From Arthonia radiata (lineage: Eukaryota > Ascomycota > Arthoniomycetes > Arthoniales > Arthoniaceae), in contig PSQN01000002.1 in assembly GCA_002989075.1 (NCBI GenBank), positions 760,097 to 824,096 of the forward strand: a stretch of 64,000 nt of DNA, read 5' to 3'. The position numbers were made by a program, and so were the translations under genes. The notes beneath the pieces were generated by a model. The model was not told the DNA's origin, did no database searches, and worked only from the letters and a program-made list of their open reading frames with translations. Shown in pieces: positions 3,001-63,144 of this stretch. Each line of letters opens with the position of its first letter. The stretch's first letter is position 1.

Positions 3001-6000
3001 CTGACTGAGTATGACTGTAGACTCTTCCGCACCTGAGTCTTTGCCGGAGGCAGGAGCGGCAGTGTTTGTGGCAGGTCAGCAAACTCCTTCTTCCAGTAGT
3101 TGCGCTTGTCCACAACGGGCTTGGTGTCAATGGTACGCTGCTGCTTTGCCGAAAATTCGATGAATTGTGTGGCGGGCGGCAAGCGCTTCAACGGGTCAAT
3201 GTAGTACTGCTCCACATCCTGAAGGAAAATCTGCCAACTGACGGCGTCGATCATGATGTGGTGGTATCCGAACACGACGGTGTGGTAGTCTGGCTGGTGA
3301 GAAAGGACAGTGGTAATGAACACATCGCCATTTTCAAGATTGTAGTCGTACACTGAGGAATGAGACCTGGCTTTGTCAACATCATTGGAGTCATTGGCTT
3401 CTCTAATATGCTCCAGCCGGAAAGTGGAATAAGCGTTGACGGCCTGCATAGCCTCGCCCGTCGCGGGATCAGAGAAGTAGCACGTGCGGAAGGGCTCATG
3501 ACGATGGATCGCACGCTGAATGGCCTTTTCAAATCGCGCAACATCCAGAGCGCCTTTCAACTTGTAAGTCGTTGTACAGTTGTACGCCGTCTTCTCCTCC
3601 AAGAGCATACAGGGGAGCCAGATGCGCGATTGCCCGAGGGACATCGGAGCAACTTTGTCGTACATGACACCGTCCATGTCCTCGAGCTCACCGTCCGAAT
3701 CGTCCGAGGTAGGTGGAGTATTAATGCCGTCCCAGTCGTCTTCGCGAGAAGAGTCGTCAGTAGTGCTATCATCTCCCGAGCTCAGGGCGACTTCGTCCAC
3801 CGTTGCAGATGCGCTCTTCTGTTGCTCGAACACCTCAGGGACAATCTCATCGATCACTTGCAAGGGTCAGCATGAGCTACTAGGCAAGATAGGCAGAAGC
3901 GAGAACAAACCTTGTGCGACGGAAGCGCCACTCAGTACTTTTAGCACAGGCATGTCCTTGTCGACTTCTTTGAGAAACCATGAGCGGACCGCCACAGCTA
4001 CAAGTGAATCAACACCTAGGTCAATGATGGGAAGGTCAGTCTTCACACCACCAGGCGGGAGCTGTAACATCGCCTCCAGCTGACTTGCGAAGCACTGGCT
4101 TAGCACTGTCCCCATTTCGGCCTCGGAAGTGCAGCTTTGGAGCTGACTTGTGACGCTTTGAGCCGGGCCTGTGTCTTTCGCAGCGGCGTCGGCAGACTGA
4201 AGCGTGAGATGGGAAAAACGTGGCTCTGTGTGCCAGGGCAGTGGATTCCTGGCCACTTCGCTAAAGCGCGATAGGCCAGTCGTTATCTGTGGCGACAACG
4301 TAGAATCGGGCTGGCCCGCCACGATCGCTTCGACAAACATGTGATGAACATCGCGTTCTGAGATTGGGCGGTATCCTTGTCTGCGCAGGCTCTGGTAGAT
4401 CTCGGTGCCACCAGTGCGGTTGACGTAGCCGATGCCGTAGAGTAAGCCTATGTCGATGACGGAGGCTGCAAGGCCGCGCTTGCGACGATTTTGAGCCAGT
4501 CCGGCCATGTACTATGCTGTACGTTAGATGCAGGGAAAAGACAAGCAAAGGGACCTCGCTGTGCGCCAGACTTACCATATTAGCAGCTGTGTAGTTGGAC
4601 TGACCTCTGTTGCCCAGCACAGCAGTCAATGACGAAAACATCATGAAAAAGTCAAGCTTGTCTTGCGCGAAAGCCTCATCCAGGTTCCTCGAACCGTCGA
4701 CCTTCGGACGCAGCACCTTTCTAAAATCTTCCGGACTGACGTCAGCAAATAATCCATCAGCAAGCACCATAGCGCCGTTTACAACCCCGCCAATGGGAGG
4801 ATGGGACTGCGACAGCTCAGCTTTCAGGCGTCGGACGTCCGACACTTTGGTCGCGTCCATGGGTGCCACCGTGATAGTGGCACCAAGCGCTTCCAGCTTC
4901 TTCTTCCAAGATGGGTTACGGTCGGGATTTCTGTGGGATTAACTCTGTTAGCAAGCGGATCGGATTGAGCAGGTATGAGTAGTTCTTACCGGCTGACAAC
5001 AACAATGTAACGCGAGCCGTTGTCTATCATATATTTGCATAGAGATTGTCCGAGGTCACCGGTCAAGCCAACCAAAAGGTATGTTTTTCTTGGCGAGAAG
5101 AGGCTCGCAGGCTCGATAGTCCGGGTCAGGGCTGGAACCAATGGCGTTGCAGACCAGTCGACGACGGTGAATGGTGAGCTCCAACTGTTTTCAACGATAT
5201 CACGAGTGGACTTGATGTCGACCTGATCGGCCAAACGAGATAGTGACGGAGAGCTCCGAATAGCAGCGATCAATGACTGAAGAGTCGAACTGATATCCGC
5301 CTGACTGGAGGAGATCCCTACAGTACTATTGGGGCGCAGGAAGGTGCTGGATGACTCAATAGGGACATCGAGAAGATCTTTGAGCAGCGACCGAGAGTCT
5401 GTAGCTGTTGAGAAATCAATGGCAGACCTAATCGAATGAGGCAGCGCAGCCTTGTTGGCGCGTCGGGTGGCCTGTTTTCGCAATAGAATCATCGACTCGT
5501 GCTGTTGCGCCTTCCTCGCGTCCGTAGTGGAGAAGTAAATGGGTCCACCTCCATGTTGCGAAGCGCCTAGTAGGTCTCGCATCACTGTTGCAAAAGCAGG
5601 GTCGGCCTCGTGGATGAGCAGAGGGGTTGCAAAGGAGTGAGCGACGACCTGCTGAGCGACGACCAAGCGCAGGATCAGCCCCACAAGAGCTGGACCGCTC
5701 ATGTCGGTATGTGGAATGTCATGCATCCTAGAAACAGGATGTTAGCATAGCCCCTTCTGAAGTTTGTTCCGGTTTTAAATAGAGTGTTTTGAGACAACGC
5801 CGGCGCGCTAGCTGCCGAACGGTGGCTTTGGAGCAATAGAAGGGAATTTGTAGATGTTCTAAGACTTACCACGCTCTGGGAACCACGTCGTAAGATGAGC
5901 TTGAAGGGAAAACGCCGAGAACCTGCTTCTTATCCTGCGTCATGCCAAGGCCAATGAACATGTGCCCGAATGCTCCTACTGGACAAGCAAATAAACTGTT

Positions 6001-9000
6001 GTGCAGGATTCGCACGATCTCGTGCTCCACGTTTCTTGCCGCGAGTTGCAAAGGAGTTTGGTTGGTGTTCGTGACGGTATGAGCAGTGGCCGTGCCTGTC
6101 TTTGCTGTGCCGAGCTGTAGACGGAACCGCGCCGGGTCGACTTCGTGGCTAATGACGCGACGAATAGAGTTAGCCCTGTCGTTCATGCTCTTGACCGGAA
6201 GCACCCGAGGAATGGAAATCTGGCCATTCTCATCAACCAACTCATGCTCGGTGGTCCAAAGGTATCGCTTCGCGTCGATCGAATCGGCCAGGGCAAGGCG
6301 GAAGAATGTCTCCCGAACCGTATCGATGGCTGACTTGGGCGCTGCAACATCGAGGAACTGCAAAGTGAACTGTGGAACCTCCTGTTTTAGTGTTCTGCAG
6401 AAACCCATGCTGGCGTAGTGGAACGGATTGTCCGCTCTGAAGCCAGAAGTGAGCCACAAAACAAAACGCTGGGGGCTGAATATCTCCAAGAGCCTTTTCA
6501 TAGTATTCTCAGTCATGCGCTCCATGACCGGTTCGTCCAAATCAGCCAGAATGACAGCCGCGCGGAGATTGTGGGTGTCCGAGGGACTGATCGTCTCAAA
6601 CGAGTCTGCTGTGATCACGCGTCCTTGCCATTGATCGAGGGTCATGTTGAGGCCATTGATAATTGCTCGTGTATCCGGCGTCTTGCCACCGACAATGAGG
6701 ACGTCGCCTGATGAGCCAACCATTTCAAAGTCAGCCTGCAAAGGATGACGCAGGGCCTCGACGACAGGGTCCACAGCCTGGGTCAACAGCATTGAATGAC
6801 TGCTACCTGGGGTGTGATAGTCGAATAATGGCTCAGTATATCCGGCGCCGTTCAACAAGTCCGTGTGTTCAAACGTCTGCGTCTTGCGTGAAGGGCCCTG
6901 CTTCCCTTGCAGACAGCACATCAGCCGCTCACGCAGCAAGCCTTCGGCAAAATGTAGAACGACAAGATATCCACCAGGCGTCATGAGCTTGCGAATATCC
7001 TGCAGTTGGCCTTCTGCAATCTCTTCGTCATCACTCAGGTACTGGCTAACGATGACGAGATCGAATGAGGAGAGTGGCCACGCCTGTTCCGCTAGAGGTC
7101 CATCTTGGAGAGATAGTGTCGTTACATTTCGCGCGGAGTTCTTCGCCAGATGCTGAGGCGAATCTTGGCGATGCGCATAAGTGTAAGATGCGAAAGACTG
7201 TAGAGCGTGCAACACGGTTGAGGTAGACAACCCAGCGCCAAAGTCCAGCTCCAAGATATTCATCTTCGGATAGCGGTGGCACATGGGCTCCACAGCACGA
7301 CTTACTTGTCGATTCAGAGCAGCAACGTCCAAGCTTTCTTGCTTTAGCTCTTGTGCCAGGCCAGGAATGAGCGCTCCAAGGCCGTGTTCGCCAAATTTGC
7401 GCAGTAGCCCTAGTGCCGGACTATAAGGGGATGAGGAGATCAAACTATCGATGCCGCCGTCTTGGATTTTATGTTTTGGATTGAGGTAGTAAGCCGCGAC
7501 CTGCTCGCACTCGGCGTCAAGAGTTGGATCAGACGCGACAAGAATCTCGCCTTCGGTTTGTGGCATGAGACTGCCTGCGTCGGGCTTGAAGATGGTCTCG
7601 AAGTACAACTCGCGATCGTCTGCCTCGATTGACTGCGAAGCATTGACCGTCAAACCTTCGATCTGGATCTCCATGTCGCCGGCTGCATTGAACATCTCGA
7701 TATCTGCAGAGAAACTGGCTTGCTTAGCTTGTGTTGTGGGTGAAAACTCTGTTACGTATGCATCAATGCCTAATTGGCAAGTCTTGTCAGTCACTTCGCA
7801 CTCTGGAATCAGGAAACGCATGCGGTGGATAGTTTGCGGTAAGAATGCTGTCCAAAGCGCTCCGTCGTTCGGCGCTGCGATCGCAACGAACGCGACTTGG
7901 AAGCTGGAGTCCAGCATGGGTGGCCGCACCCGCAGAGCTCCTTGATCCTCAGGGTGAGGCTTTTCCAGATTGGCAGTTGCATATCCGAGACGTCTCTTCA
8001 GCGATGTTACGGATTTGAATGCTCCAGTATACGCCAATCCGGTGTCTTGGATGGAAGCATAGAAGTCTTCTGAGTCCACGTGGCTTAATTCATCGGATCG
8101 CGCAGGCTTCACCGGCAGAGAGGCCGTGCCAGCTTCTCCCGTGCAGACGAGCACCTGGCCGGTGACTGCTTTTCGCATGCGCCGCTCTCCGTCGATCGGT
8201 GCGAAGTCTAGTGAAAATGCTGCATGGAGTTGGTGGGGCTCCTTGGAGGGCTGCGTTGCCAACGTGAAAAGTATCTCCACACCAGGCGAGTCATCAGCCA
8301 TTGCAATACCGTTGTGAATCTCAATGTCTTGCAGCTCGACCATCTGCACAGGGACTGCACCAGCCAAGACGCGGGCAGCGTCGAGGGCCATGATGCAGTA
8401 AGCGGCCGCTGGAACAATAATCTGACCCTGGAAGCGATGGTCTTTGAGCCACGAAATGACGTGCGGTTTCAATATGTTTCGCCAGCGAAGACACGCATCA
8501 TTGTCGTCGGACGTCCTGACACCCAGTAGCTCATGGGGCGCAGCGGCAGGATGCAGGTATTGGCGCGCCATGCGCGAGTCGCGGAAGTGTAGTTGTGAGT
8601 GATCCTAGAAGGTGTCAGCACAGCATGTTCTGGAGTTGGATAATGTTCCCAACAAAGGGCTATTGGACAGCGCCAGCGCTTCAGCTGACTGACAACGACT
8701 TTTGAGGCACAGAACGAAATGTGCAGCTGCTCCGAGACTCACCTAGAAATGAATTGTCAGCACAGCCCATTCTGAAGTTTGTTCAGGCTCAAACAAAGTG
8801 TTTTAAGATAATGCCGGCGCGCTAGCTGCCGAACAGTGGCTTCGAGGCAACGGAAAGGAATGTGTCGATGCTCTAAGACTTACCCAAGGATACGTTGGCA
8901 TATTTTTGACGACTGGAGCATCCTTGCCTGATGCTCCCAAGGTGGCGGTGATATACTGAGCAAAATCAACAGCAGCCGGACCAAGAGTAGTCCATAGCAA

Positions 9001-11691
9001 TGTCATCGTTTCGGACAAGGCCACGAGGTCGTTGGTTCCACGATTGAGGGCGCCAGCATAGGGAAGTGCTTTGCCGATCGCGTCTTGCATCGTCTGGAGC
9101 GCGGGTCCTTTGAGCGCCGCGTGAGGTCCGACTTCGACTACAGCGTCAAATGGCTCTTGCTCAACAAGAGCACGATGCAACGCCTCAGTGAACAAGACAG
9201 GCTGCACCATGTTGTCTCGCCAATACGTGCCAGCAAGCTCAGCCGCCGAGGGTGACCCTACCGGTCCATAAACGCTAGACACCCATGCGCAAGAGGAGCG
9301 CATTGGCTTAACCGACACATTGCAGGCTGCTAGAGATCGTAGGTAAGCCGCTGCGCATTTGTCCATGTGGTGTGAATGATAGGCAGTGTCGACTTTCAAT
9401 GCTCTTGCGAACTTCTTCTGACCTTCTAGCATTGCTTTCGCTTCTTGCACGGCCTCGAAGTCTCCACTTAGCGTCACGCTGGCGGGGGAATTAACTGCAG
9501 CGACGAACAAGCGATCAAGGAAGCACTCCTGCTCACACAGGTCAATCGCTTCCTCGACTCCCAAGCCGGCCGCAAGCATGGACCCCTGGCTATCATCAGG
9601 TCCAGATGCCAACTTCGCGTGGTAACCTCGATAATAAGCGATGAGAATTGAATCGCGCGCCGAAAGCACACCCGCTGCATATGCAGCGCCAATCTCACCA
9701 GAGCTGTGGCCCACGACACCGCTGAAGCGGACGCCTGATGCTCGCATCACATCGACTAATGCGACCTGGATGGCAGTACAGAGGGGCTGTGACAAAGCGG
9801 CTTCATTTAAGCGTGAGTCGGCGGACGCAGCCTGGAGCTCGTTGCGGATGGACCACGGAGGTGGGTCTGGGCACGCTTGCAATGCATCATCCATAGCCTG
9901 TATCGAGCTGCTGAATAGCGGCGAAGTCTGAATTAGACGCTTGCCCATCGTCGGCCATTGGGCACCTTGACCTGTAAATATGCCCAGAATTCGACTGTCA
10001 GCGTCAGCGGGCTTGGAGCGAATGCCGAGTGCGTTTTGAGACTCTTCCGCTTTCGCTACGACACTGGCCATCTTTGCGACTAGCTCCTCTCGAGTGGAGC
10101 CCGAGAAAGCGATTTTGTAGGCCAAATTAGATCGTCGAAAAGCTAGTGTAGAGGCGACATCTTTCAGGCAGACGTCATGGTGGGTCCTGAGGTACTCGAT
10201 ATGGCTTCGAACCATACGGAGAAGCACAGGCTCCGTATGAGCCGAGAAGAGGATTGTGGTGCATGGGGGATCAGTGATATCTTTCGCAGTAGTCTGAGGT
10301 GGTAGTAGCACAGCTCGGCGACCGTTGTGAATGACAGGCTCATATTTCTCAAGCACAGCGTGTGCGTTGGTTCCGCCGAAGCCGAAGGAGTTGACACTGG
10401 CGCGCCGTGGCTGACCTGTTGGAGGTTCAGGCCAAGGTAAACATTGGGTAGGTACTTGAAGATTTTTCATGAATGGAGCGACGCTTTTGTTGACGGTCTT
10501 CAAGTGCTGATTCTGGGGGATGAGTCCGTGATTCATTGCCAAGACGATCTTCATCAGGCCTGCGATGCCCGCAGCACCCTCGGTGTGGCCGATAATTGTC
10601 TTGATGGAGCCGACGAGTAAACGCTGATGCTCTTCGCCGTCGGGCTGTGTGCTGCTTTCGTCGATTTCTCCGAAGAAAGCCGAATGAATGGCTTCTGCTT
10701 CGCGTGGATCACCAGCTTGTGTGCCAGTGCCGTGTGCTTCGAAGTACTGGCAGCGATCGAGCGAGTTTCTAGCGTCGAGTCCAGATCTTGCGTACGTGTC
10801 TCGAATGAGAGCGGCTTGCGCCTGAGAACTGGGCATCGTGATACCCTTTGACCGCCCATCAGAGTTCACGCCAGTCTCGCGGACTATACATTCGATGTTG
10901 TCCCCATCGGCTAGTGCTTGGGATAGCGTTTTGAGGAACAAGACGCCAAAGCCATCCCCTCGTGCGTAACCGTCCGCGCCGGCATCCCACATCTTTGACG
11001 TGCCGGTGGGCGAAAGCATGTGCAAGCTGGATTCTGCGATGAAGTTCTCAGGTGTGAGCATAATGTTAGCGCCTGCTGCGCATGCGATTGATGTTTCTCC
11101 GCTCCGCAAGCTGAGAGCTGCTTGGTGGAGCGCGACCAAACTGGATGAGCAGGCGGTATCGATGGTCATTGACGGTCCATTCCAGTTAAAAAAGTAGGAA
11201 ATGCGGTTTGATATGATGGATCTGGCGGTCCCCGTTGCGGTGTACTGGCTCATGGTCGCCTTGTCTTCGCCCACTAGGCCAGCATAATCGGCCGTCATGG
11301 TGCCAACGTACACGGCGATCTGCTTCCCGGAGCATCCGTTCAGCGTTAGGCCAGCAGACTCCATACCTTCGTACACTGTTTCGAGAAGAATTTTTTGTTG
11401 CGGATCGATAGCTTCCGCCTCCTTGGGAGTGATGTTGAAGAAAGAGGCGTCAAAGGCTCGGGGGTCCTGCTCGAGCCAATAGCCCTTTGGAGCGTTCGTG
11501 GTTCCATGATGTTCTCCATCGGGATGAAAGAAGCCCTCAGCGCTGAATCGATTAGATGGAGTATCTTTGGAGAGATCGACTGGATCACTGAGGAGCTTCC
11601 AAAGTTTGGAGGTGGAGGTGACGTCGCCGGGGAAGCGACAGCCGCTGCCAATAATTGCTATGGGCTCCGATGGAGCCTCGGTATAAGTCAT
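1..11691 (-). CDS. Hybrid polyketide synthase-nonribosomal peptide synthetase (3' end outside window)
   Basis: Builds a reduced polyketide chain and couples it to one amino acid. Exons (minus strand): 8884-11691, 5870-8604, 4990-5727, 4576-4930, 3911-4511, 1415-3856, <1-1361; phases agree and give 3,680 residues before the window edge. Domains: KS (DTAC, C181; later EAHGTGT and an IGHTEG histidine), AT (GHSSG, S663), DH (H992 in DHRFQG, D1168 in LDSSFQ), a methyltransferase region near 1380-1520 with a poor SAM motif, a pseudo-ER linker, KR (SNYTAAN, Y2207), ACP (GVDSL, S2381), C (HHIMIDA, H2611-D2616), A (SGTTGKPKG near 3085; NEYGPTE across an intron), T (GGNSL, S3498) and the start of a reductase release domain (TGSTGFLG near 3590). 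No cis ER domain is visible, matching the enoyl reductase gene at 22665. Two intron positions hold copies of a repeated intron. The release chemistry (aldehyde or Dieckmann) cannot be decided because the R domain is cut. Confidence 0.96.
5728..5869 (-). repeat. Introner-like intron copy C (142 bp), intron 2 of the PKS-NRPS
   Basis: On the minus strand it starts GTAAGTCTTAGAAC, has TGCTAAC and ends TTTCTAG. It shares long blocks with copy A (CTTAGA after the donor, the GCGCGCCGGC core, AACAAACTTCAGAA near the 3' end). It lies in the pseudo-ER region; splicing restores the frame across a split Trp codon. The other introns of this gene are 53-64 nt and unrelated. Confidence 0.88.
8605..8742 (-). 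repeat. Introner-like intron copy B (138 bp), second half of intron 1 of the PKS-NRPS
   Basis: On the minus strand it starts GTGAGTCTCGGAGC, has TGCTGAC and ends CTTCTAG immediately before exon 2 (GATCACTCACAA...). It is the most diverged of the three copies but aligns end to end with copy A. It can be excised together with copy A as one 279-nt intron or after copy A in a second step. Confidence 0.82.
8743..8883 (-). repeat. Introner-like intron copy A (141 bp), first half of intron 1 of the PKS-NRPS
   Basis: Read on the minus strand it starts GTAAGTCTTAGAGC, has a TGCTGAC branch site and ends TTTCTAG. Its end directly touches the GTGAGT donor of copy B with no exon between them. It is clearly similar along its whole length to the introns at 8605-8742 and 5728-5869, including the shared block GCCGGCGCGCTAGCTGCCGA (plus strand). 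Confidence 0.88.
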
Positions 11692-13250: not shown

Positions 13251-14011
13251 ATGTCCACCGAATACGCCTCGCATGGGCTCGACGCCTCACGCCTTGGCCT
13301 GGCGATGCTGCGCTTGAGCCCGCTCATCATCTCCTCCGGCTCACTGATGTGCGCGTGGGGTATGTATCCATCAGGGTAACGCTCTTTGTTCCAAGAAACA
13401 AGTGTGTTGACATCGACAACTAGATCAGCAGAACGCGTTCCGCTCCTTCCTCGCAGACTCCCTCGCTAAGAAGCCCGGCCACATGTCGGCGCAAGTGCTC
13501 TGCGACTGGTTTGCCGAATTCGCGAAACCCACACAATACGTCATCGCGTTGGCTTACCCCTTTGCGCTCTTCTTCGCGTTTCTCAACTCCTTTGGCGCGG
13601 CCGGCGCAGGGTTGCACCCGCATACCAAATATTTCTACATGGCCGGCGGTGTGCTGAGCGTGCTGCACTATTACTTTGGCTTGTGGTCGATGATGTGGTG
13701 AGTTCACAGCCTCCACGCTCTGGGTCTTGTGTTTCTGAACTGTGATGGCGACGGCCGAATCACCGGCGTTGTCACGGAGGATTTGTCATCAACGCTCAGA
13801 GTTTCAATTCAATGGAACTACTTTCCCAAAGACGTTGTGCTGACATTACGCGAACAGGAACGCGAAGATGTCGAGCAAGGAAGACATCGGCCGCAAGAAC
13901 ATCGAAGCCCTTCGAGGCTGGCTGGGCAACAATTTCTCTCGTATGTGCTGGGTCAACTTCCCAGCGTGGGTCATGTTCGTGTGCGCAACGGCGACTTTTG
14001 TGAAGATTTGA
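13251..14011 (+). CDS. Small four-helix membrane protein of the biosynthetic cluster
   Basis: Three exons (13251-13359, 13424-13697, 13858-14011) join in phase into a 178-residue protein. The junctions are a split Asp codon (donor GTATGT, acceptor CTAG) and a split Trp codon (donor GTGAGT, acceptor ACAG). Four hydrophobic stretches are visible near residues 15-36, 70-95, 103-127 and 157-178. Conserved-looking aromatic and charged residues (YYFGLWSMMW, then GWLGNNFSR) flank helices 3 and 4. Size and layout resemble DUF1772/anthrone-oxygenase-like membrane proteins. Small integral membrane proteins of this kind take part in oxidative cyclisation in some PKS-NRPS pathways, which is family knowledge; the link here is inference. 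The gene is transcribed away from the PKS-NRPS from a shared upstream region. No single-frame reading shows the full protein, so it is easily missed. Confidence 0.72.
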
Positions 14012-47940: not shown

Positions 47941-48144
47941 GGGGTTATAAGCCCGGACTAGCACCAATTCCTTTCGAATTTCCTTTTTAGAGAATATTTC
48001 CTCTACGACATCTATCGGCACCTCCGAACGATCCTATCACCAATCGACTCTAAATTTTAAGCCTAATTCAACTATTATAACAGGATTTCCTTTTTTTGGA
48101 AATCTTTGACTATATATTCGGCTATAAACTCCTCTCACAAGATC

Positions 48145-48987
48145 CCTAAACTTAAGGGCTCTACTAATTGGGACATTTGGTCGATTCGAATGGAGGCCCT
48201 TTTAACTGAAAAGGGCTATAGTAATGTTATAATCCCCTTTTCCGGCTATTTAGCTGGAGATATTACCGAAGCTAGCCGCTAGGAACGGTCGACAAGGGCA
48301 GCAGCCCTTATTCGACTAACTCTAGAGGACGGTCCTCTTATTCAAACAAAGGGGATTTATAACTCTCTAGAGCTTTAGAATAGCCTAAAAAGGTTATACG
48401 AATCGAAAGGTTTTAGTTTCGAGTTTCTAATTTGCAAGGAGCTCTTTAGCACTATACTTAGTAAGATAAAAACCCTTGAGCTTTACCTTGCTAAAATTAG
48501 GCAATTAACGGACGATTTAGCAACCCGAGGACTAGCACTACCCAACAAGGTGGTAGCTGCCTACGTCCTTTACAATCTGACCCCTAAATACGAGCATACG
48601 GTGGCTATTATTAGCCAAAGCTACCGGCAAACGACTAGCGATATAAGTCTACAGGACTTATTTAGTAAACTTATGAACGAGTCTCGCCGAATCCGCGGTA
48701 GTACTCCAGCAGAAAAGGTTTTTACTGCAATAGACAACAAATCGACTCAAAGGACCAGAGATAAATTAAAATCTCCGGATAAAAATCAAGAAAAATGCCC
48801 CTTTTGCAACAAAAAAGGGCATAAGCCGGCAACTTGTTGGAAAAAATATCTAAACCTCCGGCCAAATTCCAACAAAAGCTCTAAAAACACCGATTTTTTA
48901 ATGTTTTCTGTACACAGTTCTAACCTACAAGAAAAACAATGCTTTATAGCATTACTAGACAGAGTTAATTACTCTACTAATTCTTAG
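48145..48987 (+). pseudogene. Copia gag relic with CCHC zinc knuckle
   Basis: In one frame from before ATG 48190: NWDIWSIRMEALLTEKGY, then TAG codons at what are probably Trp positions, then an open stretch from 48550 (VAAYVLYNLTPKYEH) through the knuckle CPFCNKKGHKPATC (C-x2-C-x4-H-x4-C). This is the retrotransposon capsid and nucleic-acid-binding part. Stops inside make it non-functional. Confidence 0.85.
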
Positions 48988-51900
48988 ATCCTCGATATAG
49001 GCTCAATAAGCTATATTTGCTCGAATATTGACCTTCTAACGGATATCCGGCCAACTAACCAGATTATTCGTTAGAGAGAGGGGAAGTCAATCTAAGCCTT
49101 ATAGACAGGCAAAGCAAAACTGTTCTTTAAGAATAAAATAATTGTTCTAGACAAAGTTTTGTTTGTTAAGGAATTTGGAATTAACCTCCTAAGCTTCGAT
49201 AAGCTTAGAAAGAGAGGAGGTAAGATAACTCTTAGCTAAAACAAGCCAAAAGTTGATTAAGCCGGACAACTAACTACCGAGGGGCGGTATGTTAACGGCC
49301 TAATAGTAATAGAAGCTCAGACTATTAATATAGTTCGATCTCTCTACACTATTTCTTCGAAAACTGACCTTTAGTATTAACGAATAGGACATATAGGCGA
49401 AAACGCCTTAAGACAGCTTAAAAAAGTTGCCCTAGGAACAGATTATTTGGACAAATTAGGAGATAATTACTAAATTTGCTTCGAAGCAAAGGCAACGGCT
49501 AAAGTTAGCCGAGAAACTCCGGACAAATTAGCCAATTATTTAGGAAAAGTCTACTCGAATATCTACGGGCCAATTATACTGTAAACTCCTTCCAAAGGTC
49601 GATTATTTACTAGCTTTATAGACAATAAAACCCGGTATACGACTACCGAGGTACTATAGTCTAAAGGCTAGGTTTTCGATGTACTATCTATCTATATTAC
49701 TCGGGAAGAAACGTAGTCTGAGCATCCTTTTAAACGATTACACTTAAACAACGTAAAAGAATATCGAAAAGGCCGGGTAAAACAGCTTTTAGAACAGAAA
49801 GGAGCTATTCTAAAATATCCGTACTATATACCTCTCAGTAAAACAGACGAGCCGAACGCTTTAACCGAAAAATTATTAGTAAAGTTCGAGCAATACTTTA
49901 TACCGCCGGGCTACCCCGGATATATTGGGGTAAAGCGCTAAAAGCAGCTACCTATATCTATAATAGGACCCCTTATACCGGATTACTAGGGTTTATTACT
50001 CTGTACGAAGCAAAATATAGCAAAAAACCGAATGTCAGTACTATTAAAATCTAGAGCTTAGTTACTTACCTTAAAGAACCTAAACTAAAGAAACTAGACG
50101 CAAGAGCAACTGCCTATATTCTAATAGGCTACAGATCGAACCAATATAAGCTCTTAGACCCCAATAACCGGAAGGTTTACTAGGGGAGAGACGTCTACGT
50201 TTAGAAAGGAAAATTTATTTGTGACCTATAGGGATCTACAGTTAATCGATTAACCGAAAGTATTTCTAAAGAGCCCGAAGAATAACTAAAAGTTAAGTTT
50301 AAAGATAAGCTAAATCTAACCGCTGAATCTTAAGATAATAGGAAGGTACCTCTTAATGAAGAAGGGAGTCCCCTATATAAGGAACAATATACCTTTCCTA
50401 TATCTTAACAACTAGCAGACGAATCTAGACAAGAACTATACTAATCTAAAGCTCTAAACGAGTCTAACCTTTCTACCGAGTTAGATTATAGAAGTACCGA
50501 AGACCCCGGCCGGGTAGACACCGATTACGCCCAGAAAATAGATTTTATATACAAAAACGCTGACAAAATTTAGTTTAATAAGTTCTACAATAATCTAGAA
50601 CAATACGCCGAACAGGCCTTAGTTGTAGTTACTAAAGAGCCTACTAATTTAAAAGAAATAAGGGTATCCAAGGATTGACCTTCTTGGCTAGACGCAATGT
50701 AGTCGGAGCTTAAAGAGCTAGCTAACTAAGAAACCTAGATATTAACCGAGCTGCCGCCGGGTAGAAAGGCGCTAAAAGGGCGCTGGGTACTAAAGATTAA
50801 GTATTCCCCGGAGAGCGAGCCGATTTTTAAAGCCCGCTGGGTAGCTAAGGGCTGCCAGCAAAGACCCGGCCTCGATTTTATAGAGACCTTTGCGAATATA
50901 GTAAATTTAATTACCTACCGGCTTATACTAGCCTTAGTAGCAGAGAAAGACTAGGAAATAAAGCAATAGAACGTAAAATTAGCTTATTCTAACGTAAAGT
51001 TAGACAAGGTTATCTATGTCAAGCAACCAACTAGCCTATCTAACGAAACTAATAAAGTTTGTTGAATAAAGAAGGCCCTTTACGGTTTAAAATAGGCCGG
51101 CCGACAGTAGAAAGCCTATCTTTAAGAATTACTAAGGGGTATAGATTTTAAACCCCTAATATCCAATTAGTCGGTTTATATTCGAAGAACCAGAAAGCAG
51201 GCAATTTTGATCGCCTACGTAGACAATATATTAGCTGTATCCGATTCTACCGAAACAATCTCCGGAATCTATTAGGAACTAAATAAGACTCTTATATTTA
51301 AGAACTTAGAAGACGTTAGTAAGTTCCTAGGAATTAAAATTACTCGAGATCGCCCGACGAAAACAATTCGCCTAGATTAGTCGACTTATTTAGCTAAAAT
51401 TTTAACCAAATACTCGAAGAACAACAGCCGAATGCCCGGAAAAATACCGCAACCCGTCGGCTTAAAATTGGCACCGAATTCTGATTAAGCTAGTAGTACC
51501 AATATTTCTAATTATTAGCAACAAATTGGGTCGATTTTGTATCTAACAACAAAGATAAGACCCAATATTGCCTTTACAACTAGCCTACTAGCCCGATACA
51601 TATTGAATCCTAGCGAGGAGCACTAGAGAGTTTTAAGTAGCCTTTAGGCTTACTTAGATAAAACTCCTAACCTTAGCCTTTACTATAAATCTCCCTTAAT
51701 AGACAGTATAACCGGCTATTGTAACGTAGATTGGGGGGGGGGAGCTCGGCACTAGGAGATCGACTACCGGCTATATCTTTTTACTCAGAAACAGAGCCCT
51801 TAGCTAGAATTCGAAGCTATAAAAAACGGTCGCCTTAAGCTCTTGTGAGGCCGAATATATGGCCCTTAAAGAAGCTATAAAGGAACAGTCATTTATCCGA

Positions 51901-52300
51901 TTAATTGCTACCAAACTGTCTGGAATTTTCGAAGAAAATTCGATTACTACCGTTTTAGCGGGTACTTTTAAAAAGTCTGCGGATAAAAAGACTCGGCGGA
52001 CTCTAACGCACCAGGCAAGCATATATTTGCCCGGGCAAGCCGGTTAAATTAGACTAGAGACCCCGGTTTTGCTGGTAAAACTGTTACTTACCGACAGCAA
52101 TTCGGCAAAAGAACTTACAAAAAACCCTACCTTCTGAGCTAAATCTAAGCATATTGATATACAGTATCACTATGTTAGAGAAAACGTTCAGGTAGGTCAA
52201 ACAGAGCTCAAATACGTTTCTACAAAGGAACAATTAGCAGACAGTTTAACAAAACCGATCGACTTAGCTAAAATACTAACGTTTAGAACTTAAATTAGCT
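48988..52300 (+). pseudogene. Copia pol relic (protease, integrase, reverse transcriptase, RNase H)
   Basis: Recognisable in order: a protease-like ILDIGS stretch; an integrase zinc region RIGHIGENALRQL and core with NIYGPI and FTSFIDNKTRY; reverse transcriptase KARWVAKGCQQRPGLDF and the active-site block AYVDNILAV, where the expected second Asp is Asn; RNase H SSCEAEYMALKEA; and the C-terminal IDIQYHYVRENV ... EQLADSLTKP that closes copia polyproteins. Dozens of stop codons, almost all TAG or TAA. Confidence 0.88.
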
Positions 52301-52338
52301 TACAATCTGGCTAAAACAACTAGTCGATTAAGAAGGTA

Positions 52339-52400
52339 TATTGAAAATTAACTAACTAGCTGGTTAGCTGGAACCCTTAGGGGCCTAAAGTATCGGACAG
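52339..52400 (+). repeat. Copia 3' LTR, left fragment (62 bp)
   Basis: TATTGAAAATTAACT... corresponds to bases 1-62 of the 5' LTR. It ends in GACAG, the target copy used by the gypsy insertion. Confidence 0.9.
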
Positions 52401-52872
52401 TATAACGCCGGTCGCTGAGAGGACCGAACTAAGGCTCACTTGCCTTGTGTGCTTGTCGACCTTGGTAGTAGGTGTCTCGTGTACTAGAGACTGAAAGGCA
52501 GGAGAGGCGAGACAGATTATAGAGAGTAAGAGAGGCTTGACTAAAGTAAATAGAAGGTAAAGCACGTTACCTAAATATAGTTAAGAAACTTGTATTTAGA
52601 TATTAAGTTAACAGACTAAAGTCTATCCTAAGGTCGGCCATCAGTCTAGCTATATAGTCTAAGGTACATAGGAAAGTTCCTCTATGTCCGTTAATCCCGA
52701 TAATACCTATATCGGGTTTATAGGGAACGTAGGCTCTTATAGCTGTCTTGTTCGATAATGCCTACGGCGGGTTTATAGGCTTAGTCGGGAATAATGCTAG
52801 TAGGGCTAAGATAACTGGCGGTGGTTAATACTTGGATGCACGCTAGGCTGTCTGAGGCTAGTGCCCGTAACA
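52401..52872 (-). repeat. Gypsy LTR, left copy (3' LTR on the coding strand)
   Basis: Begins TATAACGCCGGTCGCTGAGAG and ends CCCGTAACA on the plus strand. The opposite-strand reading gives the normal TG..CA ends, apart from one RIP change. Confidence 0.92.
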
Positions 52873-52977
52873 CAATTCCCCCTCTTTTAGTTAAATTGTC
52901 CTCGATTGACCCTTAGCCTTTTAAACATCTATAAGTTGCGTTTCGTCCCTTCTTTTGTAACTAATCTGTAAGTCGCT

Positions 52978-53553
52978 ATGCCTCGTATAAAGTCCGTTGC
53001 TGCGGGTCCTAATAAAAAGTACAGCTAATACCTGTTAATTAAAGCCTGCGGTATCGAAATGCCTTCTTGTTTTAGATATGTGTCGACTAAGGAAAGGTGT
53101 GTAGTTTAGTTTAGGAAGGCGATATGTTCGGTGTGTACTTGAGATAGAAAGAGTTGTGATTTACGGGTATCGATAGTAGATAGTATGCCCTATTGTTGTC
53201 TTTCTGTGATGCCTGAATCTAACTTAGTTGTAGCGCGTTCGGTTCATTCTCAATATTTCTCTCAGTCGGCTGCCCTTCAGCGTACAAAACGTTAGTTACG
53301 CGCGTCAAAGTCCTAGGCAGCAGTGTTAATTGCGGCTGTGCAGCGTAACCGATCTAAGGTTCGGAAGTTAAAAGAGAAGGTTAAGAAGACTTGTGCGCAG
53401 ATAGCAGCGAAGTTAGCTCGAAATAAGTTGTTGAAGCAAGAGAAGTTTGCTACGTTAATAGCTAGTAGCGATACATTTAAATGTCTAAACGGGTTATCTA
53501 TCGACTTTCGGAGTAACCCTTACCCGGAGTTAGGTAGTAGTCCTATAACGTAG
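52978..53553 (+). pseudogene. Antisense ORF relic in the gypsy element: Zn2Cys6-like pattern plus basic coiled coil
   Basis: Runs opposite to pol, between the end of pol and the 3' LTR. One frame from ATG 52978 to TAG 53551-53553 is 192 codons with five internal stops (four TAA/TAG and one TGA) at positions explained by C-to-T or G-to-A. Around codons 34-62 the residues give C-x2-(Tyr, probably an old Cys)-x6-C-x8-C-x2-C-x6-C, the spacing of a fungal binuclear zinc cluster. From about codon 115 a Lys/Arg-rich helical stretch (VRKLKEKVKKTCAQIAAKL) suggests a coiled coil. Antisense or accessory ORFs of this kind occur in some fungal gypsy elements. The function is unknown. Confidence 0.6.
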
Positions 53554-53806
53554 TAAGCTAGTTTATTTGTAGGTAACCTAGATACTAGCGAGGCGTACTA
53601 GGTAGTAAATTAGGGTGTTAGTGCTGCTATAACCAACTAATATTTTAATTTCAATATCGTTAGATAGTGTCTTTATAGTTAGTTAGGTTTCGTTCCGGTT
53701 TCCATTAATTTTTATGTTTAGGATATCCTCTCTATTTTATAAGATACTGTCGTTTGCCTCGATGTTGTTTATAAGCTCGAATCGTTTTAACCTTATACTC
53801 GGGTTC

Positions 53807-56800
53807 TTAATTGTTAGGAAGGATTTCTGAGTTGGGTCGTTCTGCCTCTCGGAAGTAAGCTAGTTTCAACAGCGCTACGTAGAATACAGGATATATTTTT
53901 ATCGTTTTTAGGAGTTTAAGTTTAAACGTTACGAGTCCTAATTGCTGTAAGATTTTAAACGGTTCCGTCTTAGTATAGTCAAGTTTCTTACTTAGTCTAA
54001 TAGTTTTTATATTTCTTATAAGCAAGTAAGCTTTTTCCCCTTCTTTTATACTTGTATTTAGGGTAGTTCTTAACTTATTATACTATTTCCTTGTTCGTTT
54101 GTTAATAAACTCGCTGTTAGCCTTTAACTGCTGGTATAGGGTCTTTATATTCGTTGCTATTCGTATAGCAGTGTCGTTTTCTGCAGTGCTTTGTAGTTGT
54201 CTGCTCTAAAGAGGGTAATAGCCGTATAAGGCATAGAACGGTATTATTTTGGTCGTATCGTTTTTTGTATCGTTGTACGCTGCTTGCGCTACTAGTAGTA
54301 ATTATACCTAGTCGTTCTACTAATAGTTAATGTATGCCCGGAGATACTGTTCTAGTGTTTAATTTGTTTGCTCCGTCTATCTATTTGTTTGCGGATAAAA
54401 AAAACGTTAATATTTTTTATTTTGTTCCTAGCTGTTGTATTAGGGATGTTCAAAATCGTAAGACGAATTTCTGGTCTCTGTCCGAGATAATTCTTTGTGG
54501 TTAACTATAGTTTGCTAAGATAATCTAAAGGAAAGTATATACTAATTGTTCTAAGTTGCTGGCTTCTCTGTAAGGTACGAAGTACGCGTACTTTGTAAGT
54601 TTGTCGCATATAACTAAGATAGCGTCGTAAGCTACTCCTATAAGTAGATCCTTGGAGATTAGTAACTTAGTAATAAAGTCTAGTAAGACTGTATACTATA
54701 GTCTCTTAGATGTCTTTAGTAGTTGTAGTTCACCGTATAGTAAATGCTTCGGGTACTTAGTTCTTGCGTATACGTCGTATTCTCGGATATAATTTTCGAC
54801 GTAATGTCAAATTTTTGAGATATAGTAGGTTCGTATAATCTTTTTAATAGTGTTGTCGATACTCTTGTGTCTCTTCGTTAAGTTATTGTAAAAGTTACTA
54901 ATAATATGTCGGATTAGATTCCTTAGAACGTAGATTTTGCTTTAAAATTTATAATAGCTCTTATTGTTTTTAGTTAGTCTTAGATGTCGTTTCTCGTTTT
55001 TCTAGTAAGTTTTAGAATCGTTTAAGATATCTAAGATTCGGCTGTTTAGTTCAATAATAAACTCTGTTGTTATAGCTAATTAATTGTATCTAATCTCGTT
55101 GTTGTATTTTTAGAATATTGTATGTTCGACGTGTTCCTTGTTATTGAGGTAATCTAGTCGTCGGCTCAGAGCATCGGCTCTATCGTTCTTAAAACCCTTC
55201 TTGTAGATAATAATAAAGTCGTATAGAGCTATAGTTTCTAACTATCTAACTTGCCTGCGGTTAAGTTTCTTTATTGTCGTAAAATAAGTTAGGTTTTTAT
55301 AGTCTGTATATACTATAATCGTATAGTTTGCTCCTTCTAGGTAGGCTCGCTATGTTTCGAATGCTGCTATAATAGTTAAAAGCTCTTTATCGTAAATGTT
55401 GTAGTTCTGTTCTGTGAGTAATATTTTTTTTGAGTAGAAAGCTACTGGTCTAAGCTTTCTTTCCTTGTTATTTTAACTTATATATGCTCCAATCGCATAG
55501 TCTAACGCGTCTGTTTCTATAATAATCGGTAAGTCAGGGTTAAATATTACTAGTACAGGTCTAATCTTAAAAGCTTCCTTAAGCTCTTTGAATGCTAATT
55601 GTTCTTTTTGCGCCTAAAAGAATCCTATCGATTGTTTTGTCTGTTAAGACAGCGGTGCTGTAATTCGGCCAAAGTTGAATATCTATTGCCTATAGTAGTT
55701 AGCAAAACTAAGAAACTATTGTAACTGTTTTATATTCTTTAGTGTAGGCTAGGTTAGAACAGATTAGATCTTTAAATCTTTTATTTAAAGACTGTGCTCA
55801 GTAATTATAAATCTAAGAAATTCGACAGATTGTTAGTAAAACTAGGTTTTCTCGATATTAATTTATAAATCGGTATGCGTCAATCTTTCTAATACCTTCT
55901 TAATATATTCCTTATATTCTTCTAGTATACGGCTGTATACTAGGATATCGTTTAGATAAGCAGTTATAAATATATCTAGATAATCGCTAAGCGTATTGTT
56001 AATTAGTTTCTAAAATAATGCTAGTGCGTTTATTAGCTTAAAGGGTATAACGCAATACTTAAAAAGTCTGTGTCTGGTACGGAAGGCTGTTTTCTATTCT
56101 TTGCCTTTCTGTATATAAATTAGGTTATAAGCTCCTCGTAGGTTAAACTTAGTAAACTATTACGCGTTATACAATTGATCTGTTATTTTGTTGATGCGTA
56201 GTAAAGAATATCGATTCTTAATAGTTACCCTATTTAATTGTCTATAATCTACGTAGAGTCGTAGTTTGCTACTCTTCTTTGGTACAAAGAGTATTAGGTA
56301 TCCGACTAGTAATATTAATTTCCAGATAAATTCCTTTTTAAGATTTTTATTAAGATAGTTGCGGAGCGCTTAATTTTCTGCTTCTAATAGAGAGTATATT
56401 GGACCAAATGTTAGCGTTTTACCTTCTTATAAAGGTATTGTGTAATCCTACGGTTTATATTCTAGAAGAGCTGAGTTTGGCTTAGCTTCCTCGAACAGGT
56501 ATCAGAATTAATTATATTCCTCTAGTATCTTAGTAATCAACTGAGTACTTGTTATCGTATAGAATCGTTGACGTACAGTCGTCTCTTGTTTATACTTACG
56601 TATAGCTAACTATAAATAAGATACTGCATTAAACTTCTCTTATAGAATATCTAAATATCGAAGTATAGTAGTACTAATTTGCGTAAGTTCCTTATCGCGC
56701 TCCTTATTTTTACTACTAAAATTAGCTTATAGAGTATCTGTTCTGTAAAACGACTCTTGTTTAGAGTACTTATACTTAGTAAAGAGGAGTTTCTTAGTTC

Positions 56801-58950
56801 TCTAATCTACTTCTAAGTTATATTGTTATAACTAAGGTATACCTAGCACAGCGTAGTACTAATTAATATCTACAATATTATAAGTAATTTCTTTTTAATA
56901 GTTCTCAATTATTATATCTATTAGCGAAGTCTCGTAGTTAACTCTTTTCTCTGCTCCTTGAAATTTAAACAGTACGTAGGGTAATTTCTTCTTTTATATT
57001 TATATTTAGTACTTCTTAACGCAGCGTATTGAGATAAAGTTGCCTATTGCGCCTAAATCGATTATAATTTTAATGTTTCTGTAGTTTATTGTTGCCTAAG
57101 TATGTAGATGTGTTCTATAGGCAGCCGAGCTCGCGTAGAGCTAGACTCTTAGAGGATTTAACCGTTAAACGGGCCGGTACTACTGCCCTTAAAGCAGTCG
57201 GTCTAGTCTTTTTTCTGTTAATTGTATACGTTCTAGAGTATTTTAGGTACTAGAACCCATTGTCGATTAATTTGCTATAAGAATGCCTGTATAAGGTGTC
57301 CTAGTACTGCTTTTATTATAACGTCTAGTTTATTGTTTACGATCTCTGCTTTAATTATACAACTATTACTAGTTAGAACTCGTCGTGTCTATAAGTTATA
57401 TATTGTTAGTCGAAGATATTGGTACTAACTATATAATTCTAAACCCCTAATAAGGTGGTCTACTAGTTGTCGTAGGCGTAAGTAAATGTATCCCGAAATA
57501 TTGTTAATGTTTCTATTAGCGCTTAACTTTCTATTGTAAAAGGCCAACTAACAAAGTCTCTATATTATTTCTTCCCAACAAATTAGGGTTTGCTCTTTCT
57601 AGTTAATATCGTTCTTAAGTAAGAATTTTATACTATTAGAATCTATATTTTTATCTTTGAGTCGTTATCTTGCCTATAACGTATCGTAGCTGCTATCTTG
57701 CTTAGCTTCTACGGTCTGTTCTTCCTTAGATTCTCCTTAGGTTTCTAGGCAAGGTAACCTAGGTTGTCCTTAGATAAGGCCTAGTTCTTATGTCGAACCT
57801 TATTTTAGAGATATCGGTTTCTTCGGCCATTATCCTAATTCTAATTTGTCAGATTTATAGGTCGTACAATTATTATCGTAGCACGCAGTTTAGAATAGTG
57901 TTTTATGTAGTGTAGCGGTATTTTGTATCTACTGTCTTGGAATAGTACGGTTAATGTTGTTTTAGTCCTATAGGTTTCGTTGTTTCTGTTTTATTTGTCG
58001 TTCCTTTGTTTCTTTCTATAACTCAATGTTTGTATCCTAGTTCTTGTGTAAGTTAAATAAGTTCTATTTGTTGTGCTTTTTGTTAGAAGTAACCTAGTAG
58101 GTGTTCTCCTGTGTCTAGGTAGTTATATTGAAATATTGTCGTAGGAAACAAGGTTTCTATAGTCGTTCGTTATACCCGTTTCTACTAGTACTATTGAACT
58201 GTTATTTCTTAGAACGGTATTCTTTAACTTAATGCCCTGGCTTTCTGCAATATAAGTATAGCTTGTTCTTTATTCTGTATTCTCTTTCTTAGTTGTTTAG
58301 TTTCCCTCGAGGCTTTATAAAATCTAGCTTCATTGAATCGCCTCGGTCTTATCGTAAGTTTGCTCGATTTTTTGTTCTATAGAACCTATTAGTAGGGTTA
58401 CCCTTCTTTTTTATCTATCTTTTAAAGTTACTGTCGTTAATCTCCTTTACTCGTTATATAAAGTTATCGAGATTATTAAACTTCTCTTTACAAATATAAA
58501 TTATTTCCTTAATATAATCCTTAAGTCCTTCGTAAAAGGTCTCGATAAGGGGTTTCTTGTTCTATCCTATTTAATTAGTATACTATATAAATTCGGCGGC
58601 GTACCTGCTTGCTGGTCCTATTTATTTAAGGTTCCTAAGCTTTCTAGTAGCGATGCGTCTAGCGTCAGTCTATCTAAAGATTTTACAAAGCTTCTTCTAA
58701 AAGGAGGTAAAGCTAGTAAAGAACTTATCGGTATCCTTGCGCCTACTCTTTATTAAAGTAAATAAGAAATCGTCGAGATAATACTCAACCTACTTGTAAG
58801 CATCTCTATCTATATAAAAGGTAGCGAATAGAACTATAGTAGTATCGTTCGGGAACTAGTCTTTATAAGTTTTAAAGTATACGGCTAGACGTATTAAGAA
58901 TAAAGTAACTTTAGAACGTTTACTTAAGAAGCTTTTTCTTATCTTAGTAT
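53807..58950 (-). pseudogene. Gypsy gag-pol relic
   Basis: On the minus strand, reading from about 58950 down to 53807. Clear landmarks are the reverse transcriptase active-site block near 55945 and the integrase C-terminal/chromodomain-like segment at 53807-54025; the right-hand part should hold gag. Frames are broken throughout, so I give no exact domain limits. Confidence 0.75.
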
Positions 58951-59080
58951 TAACGTTCGATACCTTACTCGTACTAGCCATTCTATTAGCTAACCTGTCT
59001 GCAGCGTCGCGGCTGTTGAATGCCGAAGTAGTAAATATAACTAATCTACTTTCTTTACTTTCGTAGTAAGTCTATTAAAG

Positions 59081-59552
59081 TATAACGCCGGTCGCTGAAA
59101 GAACCGAACTAAGGCTTACTTACCTTATATACTTGTTAACCTTAGTGGTAGGTGTCTTGTGTACTAGAAACTAAAAGGTAGGAGAAATAAGATAGATTAT
59201 AGAGAGTAAGAGGGGCTTAACTAAAGTAGATAGAAGGTAAAGTACGTTACTTAAATATAGTTAAGAAACTTGTATTTAGATATTAAGTTAATAGACTAAA
59301 GTTTATTCTAAGGTCGGTTATTAGTTTAGCTATATAGTCTAAGGTATATAGGGAAGTTTCTCTATATCCGTTAATCTTAATAATACTTATATCGGGTTTA
59401 TAAGGAATATAGGCTCTTATAGCCGTCTTGTTCGATAATGCTTACGGCGGGTTTATAGGCTTAGTTAGGAATAATGCTGGTAGGGCTGAGATAACTAGCG
59501 GTGATTAATGCTTAGGTGCACGCTAGGCCGTCTAAGGCTGGTACCCGTAATA
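59081..59552 (-). repeat. Gypsy LTR, right copy (5' LTR on the coding strand)
   Basis: 472 bp, same length as the left copy, ends CCCGTAATA (CA to TA). Followed directly by GACAG. Confidence 0.92.
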
Positions 59553-60002
59553 GACAGGTTCTACTAGCTGTCTTGGTCTAAAATAGAACAAGCCTTTTAT
59601 CTAAAGGGTCGGGCCTAGTAGCCCGGGCCTAGGACAAAAAGAAGTATTATACGATCTATTCTAGACAGCTAGCCTGTAGTCTAAGACAATATAGAATAAA
59701 CTTAAAAACTAATAGTTTTAAATAGACAGAATTACTCTCTTATATAGTAAATTACGGGTTATCTAGCCTCTATTAAAAGAACAGATATTTAGTAAGTTCT
59801 GTATAGACCGCTAAACTTAAATATATAAGCTAGGATCTCTCTAGAGAATTCTAGCTAACAAGACAGACAATATAACAATAGCTTCTCCTTGCTACTAAGT
59901 ATTGTACCTGTATTAAGCCTAAGTATTGCACCAGTCTCAAGCTAGTCTCGTCTTTCTACTCTTTATAGTAGTATTCTTCTTCTTTCCTGTATCTTTTTAA
60001 CA
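59553..60002 (+). repeat. Copia 3' LTR, right fragment, with duplicated GACAG
   Basis: 59553-59557 is the second target copy; 59558-60002 continues the LTR (GTTCTACTAGCTGTC...) to TTTTTAACA. With the left fragment it restores 507 bp. Confidence 0.9.
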
Positions 60003-60565
60003 AAGATTGACTAAGAATTTACTTCTATTAGAGATATATAGCTATAACTAAACTAATATTAGCTCTATAACTATATTAATAGTTAGAATAAGAACTATAT
60101 ACTATAAGATTCTAGATATAGTTATACTACTATAGACTCTATTTATAAGAAGGTAAACTAATAATAGTAGAAATATAATACTAAGAGCTCTATTTAAATA
60201 GTAGATATAAAAAGAATTAGATATAGAATAAGAATAAGAGAGTAGATAATACTCTTATATATATTAATATGATTTAAATTATCTAATTAATATACTAAAC
60301 TAAAAATAAGAAAGTTAGAGATAGTAGTATAGTTTATATGTACTATTTAATTATTAAAATATAAGTTAAAAATTAAGTTAGAATACTAAGAGCTAATAGG
60401 GTCTAAGACTAGTTTATAATACTATTTAGATACTTTAATATTTATATTCTACTTTATTCTCTCTAAAGTATATCTAAGAGCCTATAAGATAGAAGAATAG
60501 AGCTATATAATACTATCTATCTATATAATTACTATTTTTAGTCTTCTTATAGATTTAAGAAAATT
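60003..60565. other. AT-rich sequence without recognisable gene
   Basis: Almost entirely A/T with CTATA/TAGAG words. No frame of note and no identifiable element. Confidence 0.6.
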
Positions 60566-61051
60566 AGAGCTCTCTATAGAAGATTATTTTTCTAATGAAA
60601 AATAGAATAGAATAGGAGATAAAATAGAATAGAAGCTAAAACCTCTTTTTTATTAAATTAGAAATAGAATAGAAGTCTAAAAATAAAAATTCTATTCTAT
60701 TCTTAGTATTTTTAGATAAATAGAATAAAAATTATAATAAAAATAATCTTTTTTAAAATATATTTTTAAGTTATTTAAAAATATATAACCTCTAAAGGTC
60801 TCTAAATATATAAAATTAGAGCTTGAAGCTCTAATTATTTTTTTGATAGAATTTTTAGTTCTAAGCTTATAATATATTAATCTCTCTTTTAGTAATTTTT
60901 TATTCTATTTTATTCTACTTTAATAAAAATAGAAGTAAAAGTTAAAATCTCTTTTCTATTCTATTAGCTCTAACTTCTAATCTTCTTTCAATAAAATAGG
61001 AATAGAATAGAATCCTAAAATCCTCTTCTATCTTATTCTATAGAGAACTCT
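60566..61051. repeat. AT-rich repeat with terminal inverted ends, copy 1 (486 bp)
   Basis: Begins AGAGCTCTCTATAGAAGA and ends TTCTATAGAGAACTCT; the ends are inverted copies of each other. Inner parts (GAATAGAATAG-type words) are also inverted relative to each other. The same unit recurs at 63145-63644 in the same orientation. Looks like a RIP-eroded MITE-type element. No coding capacity seen. Confidence 0.65.
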
Positions 61052-62765: not shown

Positions 62766-63144
62766 CTATATAAGAGAGATAAAGATAAAGGAGTAAGATT
62801 TAGATAGCTTATAGCTTTTTATATATATAGTTATAGTATATTATAGTATCTTATAGATATCTAGATAGTATATAAAAGTATTATATATAGAATTAACTAG
62901 TCTAGATAGCTATACTAAGATATAGAACATCTAGTAGAGAATTATATTATAGATATATACTAAGATTATATAATAGATATAGTTATATTTTCTATCTTAT
63001 TCTTATATATCTACCTTTCTACTACATTAGTTAGAATATAATAAAAGCTATATAGCTTATCAAGTTATAAGTTTAGTAGCTTTAATATAGTAAGAAGTTA
63101 TTATTAATAGTAAAGCTAAATAGTAAGATATTAAGATCTAAATT
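62766..63144. other. AT-rich sequence without recognisable gene
   Basis: 379 bp, no feature beyond AT-rich words. Confidence 0.55.

Follow-up and report, generated by a model that had tools for sequence, protein, structure and literature searches.

How do two complete introns come to lie back to back in one gene, with no coding base between them? The question is raised by a polyketide synthase (PKS) gene of Arthonia radiata in a 64,000-nucleotide stretch of DNA, hereafter the window (assembly GCA_002989075.1, contig PSQN01000002.1, positions 760,097 to 824,096). Three introns of this gene, all on the minus strand and here called copies 1, 2 and 3 (8743-8883, 8605-8742 and 5728-5869), had been assigned in a preliminary description to one repeated, introner-like family. 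The coordinates given there implied that copies 1 and 2 are contiguous, although the description did not remark on it: the acceptor AG of copy 1 is followed immediately by the donor GT of copy 2 (CTAG/GTGAGT, with the slash marking the junction). Here we show that the window introns belong to a family of introners, taken in its broad sense, that this family has copied itself into many unrelated genes of this genome, and that different family members are joined end to end, mostly exactly at splice sites, with no coding sequence between them. Our overall reading is that of an introner family whose different copies become joined exactly at their ends, either by template jumping or by insertions directed at the ends of introners, and we give it a probability of about 0.7.

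An introner family in the window and across the genome

The three window introns have GT...AG ends and can be aligned with one another over their whole length. Their starts read GT(A/G)AGTCT and their ends CTAG; two of them carry AGCGCGCCGGC as the central block and the third carries AAGCGCTGGC. A model built from 29 of the 32 seed copies, with the window copies left out, found all three again, at E values of 1.9e-39 (5869-5728), 2.6e-39 (8883-8743) and 3.3e-29 (8742-8608). These full-length matches, together with the GT...AG ends and the mutual alignment, bear out the claim that the three introns form one family. The shared features listed for them hold in part: the central block and the end-to-end alignment stand, whereas the common donor context outside the introns is reduced to a G at -1. 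Over the model columns, copies 1 and 3 are 0.82 identical and copy 2 is 0.64 identical to either, which indicates that two subfamilies are present. The sole further match in the window at E <= 0.01 is a weak one on the other (plus) strand, at 13706-13847 (13.2 bits, E 0.0019).

The preliminary description had proposed a genome search with the 141-nt copy 1. Run as a BLAST search against the organism's own genome (33.5 Mb in 16 contigs), it found matches at 45 places. A pattern for the 3' end of the family gave 78 rows representing 72 distinct places, with 0 for the reversed-pattern control, and a pattern for the 5' end gave 82 places, with 2 for its control. Both patterns were present on 17 copies and at least one at 137 places, from which capture-recapture yields 347 copies. 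In the fetched stretches, the model matched at 62 of 66 sites carrying the 5' pattern (near-full at 52) and at 52 of 61 sites carrying the 3' pattern (near-full at 51). The whole genome would thus hold roughly 230-350 copies, where the lower value is scaled by the near-full share and the estimate assumes that the two ends decay independently.

Our sample for closer analysis consists of 102 stretches with 325,592 bases, about 1% of the genome, picked because they hold family matches; they include 20 of 125 regions planned at ~7 kb and 60 of 85 short regions planned afterwards. It contains 154 matches at E <= 1e-3, and 134 of these are near full length (at least 115 of 142 positions). The modal length is 142 nt; the consensus starts with GTAAGTCTYAGAGC and has GCTGTGCTGACA 12 nt before its end. 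The copies are numerous and dispersed, and they lie in the sense direction at intron positions in many genes, in agreement with the introner family first proposed. The suggestion that the gain was recent was not supported. Identity across the family has a mean of 0.62 and a maximum of 0.92, and for the window copies the closest relatives elsewhere in the genome reach 0.845-0.867; these top values argue against a very recent spread. Intron-like elements at L052, L055, L056, L067 and L078 match the family only over their first ~36-45 nt (100 in L078), and by their sequence these are probably related introner families.

Copies are stacked head to tail

The 154 matches fall into 113 groups: 86 singles, 19 pairs, 5 triples, 2 groups of four and 1 of seven. 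Arrays of 2-7 copies therefore make up 27 of the 113 groups at these selected loci, about a quarter. Among the 41 junctions within arrays, the gap between neighbours is exactly 0 in 27 and lies between -4 and +2 in a further 9. All 41 abutting pairs are on the same strand, head to tail, and no opposite-strand pair is equally close. An intact AG/GT is present at 26 of the 41 junctions, and every junction is intact in 15 of the 27 arrays. By simple arithmetic, random placement of 350 copies would produce about 0.002 same-strand pairs with a gap of 0. The group sizes fit a constant joining chance of 0.27, under which 82.9 singles, 22.1 pairs, 5.9 triples and 1.6 groups of four are expected, against 86, 19, 5 and 2 observed. 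The four-copy arrays include those at C10:1674.9 kb and C16:1922 kb. A long row of copies, many of them decayed, lies at C10:1,219.8-1,222.2 kb (L044:2341-4760) beside a short coding exon, which presumably belongs to an aldo-keto reductase gene; the row may be a single giant intron or part of a gene that has decayed.

Are the copies in an array duplicates of one another? Mean identity in 28 adjacent full-length pairs is 0.628, compared with 0.620 over all 8911 pairs, and 130 of 500 random draws were equally high. The neighbour was the nearest copy of either member in 0 of the 28 pairs, and neighbours were sister leaves of the tree in 0 of 29 cases. Neighbours are therefore as unlike as random pairs, which means that the arrays are not tandem duplications. 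Age polarity is absent as well, with the 5' neighbour closer to the consensus in 15 of 29.

We also asked what else the copies are joined to. Nested copies were sought among 224 matches at E <= 10, with 0 candidates; one copy carries a 37-nt internal length difference. Simple motifs for ordinary-intron ends were found in 0 of 97 upstream flanks, and motifs for donor-like starts in 3 of 98 downstream flanks, two of the three being members of a sister family. This sister element, which starts with GTAAGTTCAACAGCGTC, is rare, and its exact pattern occurs at C1:2357205, C1:3233956, C8:218770 and C13:1438805.

One combination of copies recurs. At L018:1321-1639 and L022:1183-1500, two introner copies enclose an inverted 5'-end piece and form a compound with it. 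The two versions are ~85% identical over 315 nt and lie in two genes with unlike flanks, where the other array members differ; a fused product can therefore be mobile in its own right. Weaker look-alikes occur at C13:523.6 kb, C13:1957.2 kb and C16:418.4 kb, and the inverted pieces could have been left by strand switching during copying. The compound, on C14 and C16, is the one adjacent pair common to two arrays at identities of at least 0.8 on both members. Shuffling gives an expectation of 0.12 such pairs, and as many as one arose in 35 of 300 shuffles; arrays that travel whole are thus no general rule.

Sequence evidence that the elements are introns

The element contains both of its splice sites, and its removal restores the reading frame. 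With the element or array removed and 200 nt kept on either side, the join is open in 33 of 82 cases, compared with 9/82 and 6/82 when shifted by 2 and 1 bases. With 120 nt on either side, the join is open in 46/88, compared with 30/88 and 26/88 for the same shifts and 19/88 antisense. With 60 nt there is nearly no difference (73/88 versus 65/88 and 69/88 shifted). For these counts, 20 partial groups and 3 without donor or acceptor were excluded from the 113, leaving 90 groups, of which 2 to 8 were dropped for short flanks. The flanks have G at -1 in 65 of 90 groups and G at +1 in 56 of 90, with no preference for A at -2 (20/90). There is no sign of target duplication in the 90 groups, where the two ends share direct repeats of 2-6 bases no more often than shuffled ends do.

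Ten of the 27 arrays were compared with Pfam, and in 8 of them a domain spans the join: phosphorylase, SLX1, Memo, Nup188, ABC-2 transporter (by five residues), ankyrin, ubiquitin-conjugating enzyme and glycosyl hydrolase 28. Of the other two arrays, one has its domain on one side of the join and the other matched none. These ten arrays were picked for open frames, and the acceptor (among nearby AGs) and the phase were also picked for the longest open frame. From the sequences we infer that the elements are spliceosomal introns of ~142 nt with a GT, a branch point and an AG.

Splice sites within arrays are lost more often than those at the outside. The donor GT is missing at 10 of 37 internal and 10 of 106 outer sites (p 0.013) and the branch motif at 8 of 34 and 6 of 97 (p 0.009), whereas acceptor loss does not differ significantly (5 of 39 and 6 of 100, p 0.29); these counts are biased in that many loci were picked via patterns that need an intact end. 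Arrays can apparently hold working AG/GT junctions that decay later, and the internal decay implies that a part of the arrays, if spliced out at all, must come out as a single intron.

The elements do not fold unusually: 110 single copies fold like shuffles (mean z -0.04), as does the consensus (z -0.60), and RNAalifold finds 6 pairs with 0 compensatory changes and no covariation. A 38-pair structure taken from one copy leaves 80% of cells paired, compared with 36-44% for slid versions and 79.9% after column shuffling. Structures derived from one member usually beat their slid versions, and this candidate beats shuffles on no measure; a conserved RNA structure is therefore rejected. Rfam, searched with 6 of the loci, did not match the elements. 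It places a 5S rRNA gene near one introner copy (L002:2298-2418).

How could different copies become joined?

Rows of complete, different introners look like the footprint of a joining reaction that takes whole introns, runs in one direction in the pairs seen and acts on nearly only introners. Because the junctions coincide with splice sites, the unit that is joined would be the excised intron itself. Stacking of this kind argues against both tandem duplication and a generic insertion that would use any splice boundary. Whatever the route, the arrays are many natural introns with zero-length exons in a compact genome, and so offer material on recursive splicing and on the decay of redundant sites.

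We tentatively prefer an RNA route with template jumping, although we would place it somewhat below even odds. A reverse transcriptase would use excised introner RNAs as templates and, on reaching the end of one RNA, would jump to another. Joining would take place before or during integration, and one event could insert a whole row of different introns. Singles and multiple inserts would be products of one reaction with a constant jump probability of 0.27. Introns would become longer by the addition of whole introns, and AG/GT recursive splice points would arise de novo. An array could be removed copy by copy, with each AG/GT serving for recursive splicing, or all at once between the first donor and the last acceptor. 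Template jumping predicts whole introns, one direction, almost only introners, and the joining of different copies. If it is true, the arrays would be direct genomic evidence of an RNA intermediate in fungal introner movement, and would reveal a natural origin of recursive splicing.

Several points weigh against our reading. The insertion of a single concatemer predicts equally old neighbours, and no age correlation was detected: terminal branch lengths of neighbours are uncorrelated (rho 0.13, p 0.50; a noisy measure, n=29), as are their nearest-relative identities (rho 0.10, p 0.59). Five of the 41 junctions are not near-exact, with gaps of -11, 5, 32, 34 and 36. The search for ordinary introns beside the copies used simple motifs, and the array share of 27/113 applies to loci picked by family matches and not to all copies in the genome. 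Splicing of the elements is deduced from their sequence only. Finally, the usual copies have a weak complementarity between their ends, which would also fit a degraded inverted-repeat element.

A close second is successive insertion aimed at introner ends, in which a copy lands exactly beside an existing copy; we consider this possible, with the odds leaning against it. The incoming copy could be RNA, inserted by reverse splicing, or DNA, inserted by an enzyme that recognises element ends, and some bacterial insertion sequences do target element ends. Given a recognition step specific to those ends, such insertion predicts exact ends, head-to-tail order and unrelated neighbours, and it fits the missing age correlation between neighbours better than a single concatemer does. 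The absence of age polarity agrees with it as well. So does the sister element, which directly follows an introner at 3 of its 4 places, where the introners to its left are mutually unrelated (0.56-0.70). However, the recognition step is hypothetical. In a more generic form, insertion at any splice boundary should strike the ordinary introns, which are presumably far more numerous, and almost none of these were seen beside the copies. Stacking makes the choice between concatenation of RNA, as in the template jumping that we prefer, and self-targeting testable by comparison of strains.

A cut-and-paste DNA transposon of the introner type, with terminal inverted repeats, target duplications and one co-opted splice site, is unlikely. 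The inverted 5'-end piece at a few loci would fit such an element, as would the end complementarity of the usual copies (columns 9-23 with 122-142, 75-86% of cells paired). However, this complementarity is without covariation and the copies fold like shuffles, the direct repeats at their ends are at the shuffled level, and both splice sites are inside an element whose removal restores the frame. Stwintrons of the nested [D1,2] type would account for paired introns in one interruption, and repeated stwintron families are described for other ascomycetes in the excerpts consulted of PMC8469720 and PMC12403724, but the idea is very improbable here, as their junctions would read ...AG/TAAGT after a G, most of ours read AG/GT, and nested copies are lacking among the matches. 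Local tandem duplication of one old intron, the rival named beforehand in the preliminary description, suits the direct contiguity of copies 1 and 2 but is scarcely credible, since the closest relative of copy 2 is on C13 (0.867) and its neighbour copy 1 reaches only 0.642, and neighbours in general are no more alike than random members.

The host gene and other features of the window

The coordinates of the window copies and of the host gene are collected in Table 1, where the branch-point-like motifs are named after the generally known consensus.

Table 1. Introner copies, their motifs and junction, and the host gene in the window
Feature	Position	Strand	Description
Introner copy 1	8743..8883	-	141 nt, GTAAGT...CTAG, phase 0; splits W/D of the PTYPW/DHS motif, upstream of the dehydratase (DH) domain
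Introner copy 2	8605..8742	-	138 nt, GTGAGT...CTAG; other subfamily; directly abuts copy 1
Introner copy 3	5728..5869	-	142 nt, GTAAGT...CTAG, phase 2; single copy at PRAW/MHD
Junction of copies 1 and 2	8742..8743	-	...TTTCTAG/GTGAGTCT...; zero-length exon, nothing between
Branch-point-like motif of copy 1	8756..8760	-	CTGAC, read off the sequence
Branch-point-like motif of copy 2	8614..8618	-	CTGAC, read off the sequence
Branch-point-like motif of copy 3	5741..5745	-	CTAAC, read off the sequence
Part of host gene	5400..9300	-	exons 9300-8884, 8604-5870 and 5727-5400; PKS DH domains

Joined without the introns, the host exons form a single open frame of 1160 codons, which reads ...PTYPW/DHSQ... 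where copies 1 and 2 are removed and ...PRAW/MHD... where copy 3 is removed. The closest solved relative of the host gene is a PKS-nonribosomal peptide synthetase (PKS-NRPS), psoA (structure 9x2c). The first 463 host residues align with it, unbroken through PTYPWDH across W/D, and two PKS dehydratase models match above their cut-offs downstream of W/D. Was an intron gained here? All 5 of the other PKS-like matches in the organism's own genome, which are paralogues and not orthologues, align uninterrupted over the W/D position and are therefore without an intron there. The paralogue alignments are in favour of a possible intron gain at W/D. For the PRAW/MHD position, the same genome gave no paralogue match. 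The best PKS-like paralogue match (C10:1321530-1322108) has one TAA stop within the aligned frame.

At the far end of the window, positions 48001-64000 are AT-rich, with a GC content of 0.38 falling to 0.22 and a TA/AT ratio of 1.5-1.8, a composition that we take to resemble repeat-induced point mutation (RIP). Repeats lie at 47423, 59485, 62248 and 60570/63148.

Comparison with known systems

Recursive splice sites and zero-length exons occur in long animal introns. The animal sites resemble the junctions described here in having AG/GT with nothing between. They differ in that the AG/GT here, a putative splice point, arises from the joining of two mobile introns.

Among fungi, the family can be compared with the introner-like elements (ILEs) of Dothideomycetes, for which we draw on excerpts of PMC4457414. 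Like the present family, ILEs are canonical introns of one family that lie in the sense direction in many unrelated genes, and both are longer than ordinary fungal introns, given there as 50-55 nt. Two further features of ILEs are found here, the lack of a target duplication and the location of the splice sites inside the element (description by van der Burgt, as given in excerpts of PMC8469720 and PMC4457414). In contrast to ILEs, for which a stable secondary structure is predicted, the present family has no unusual secondary structure, its members are at most 0.92 identical where ILEs are near-identical, and its copies are directly stacked. Where two ILEs are described in one gene in the same excerpts of PMC4457414, they are 145-626 bp apart with exon between them; the ILEs of D. 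septosporum are also of much lower identity. Because of its divergence and its lack of unusual structure, the family consists of introners but not of ILEs in the strict sense. It agrees with introners in the broad sense, as defined in the excerpts of PMC9860276, in its full-length similarity and in having well over five copies, and the ascomycete families treated there are likewise without target duplication. According to the same source, fungal introners lack the transposon marks seen elsewhere and are interpreted as RNA-based elements. The words "tandem" and "nested" are absent from its main text. In the excerpts examined we found no description of directly stacked introners, and literature searches aimed at such stacking gave none either, although the founding ILE papers may mention it.

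The arrays can also be compared with the sister stwintrons of Hypoxylaceae (excerpts of PMC8469720 and PMC12403724). These too are complex introns that are repeated and inserted seamlessly. However, the stwintrons of Hypoxylaceae are nested in the donor, whereas the present introners are stacked one behind the other without nesting.

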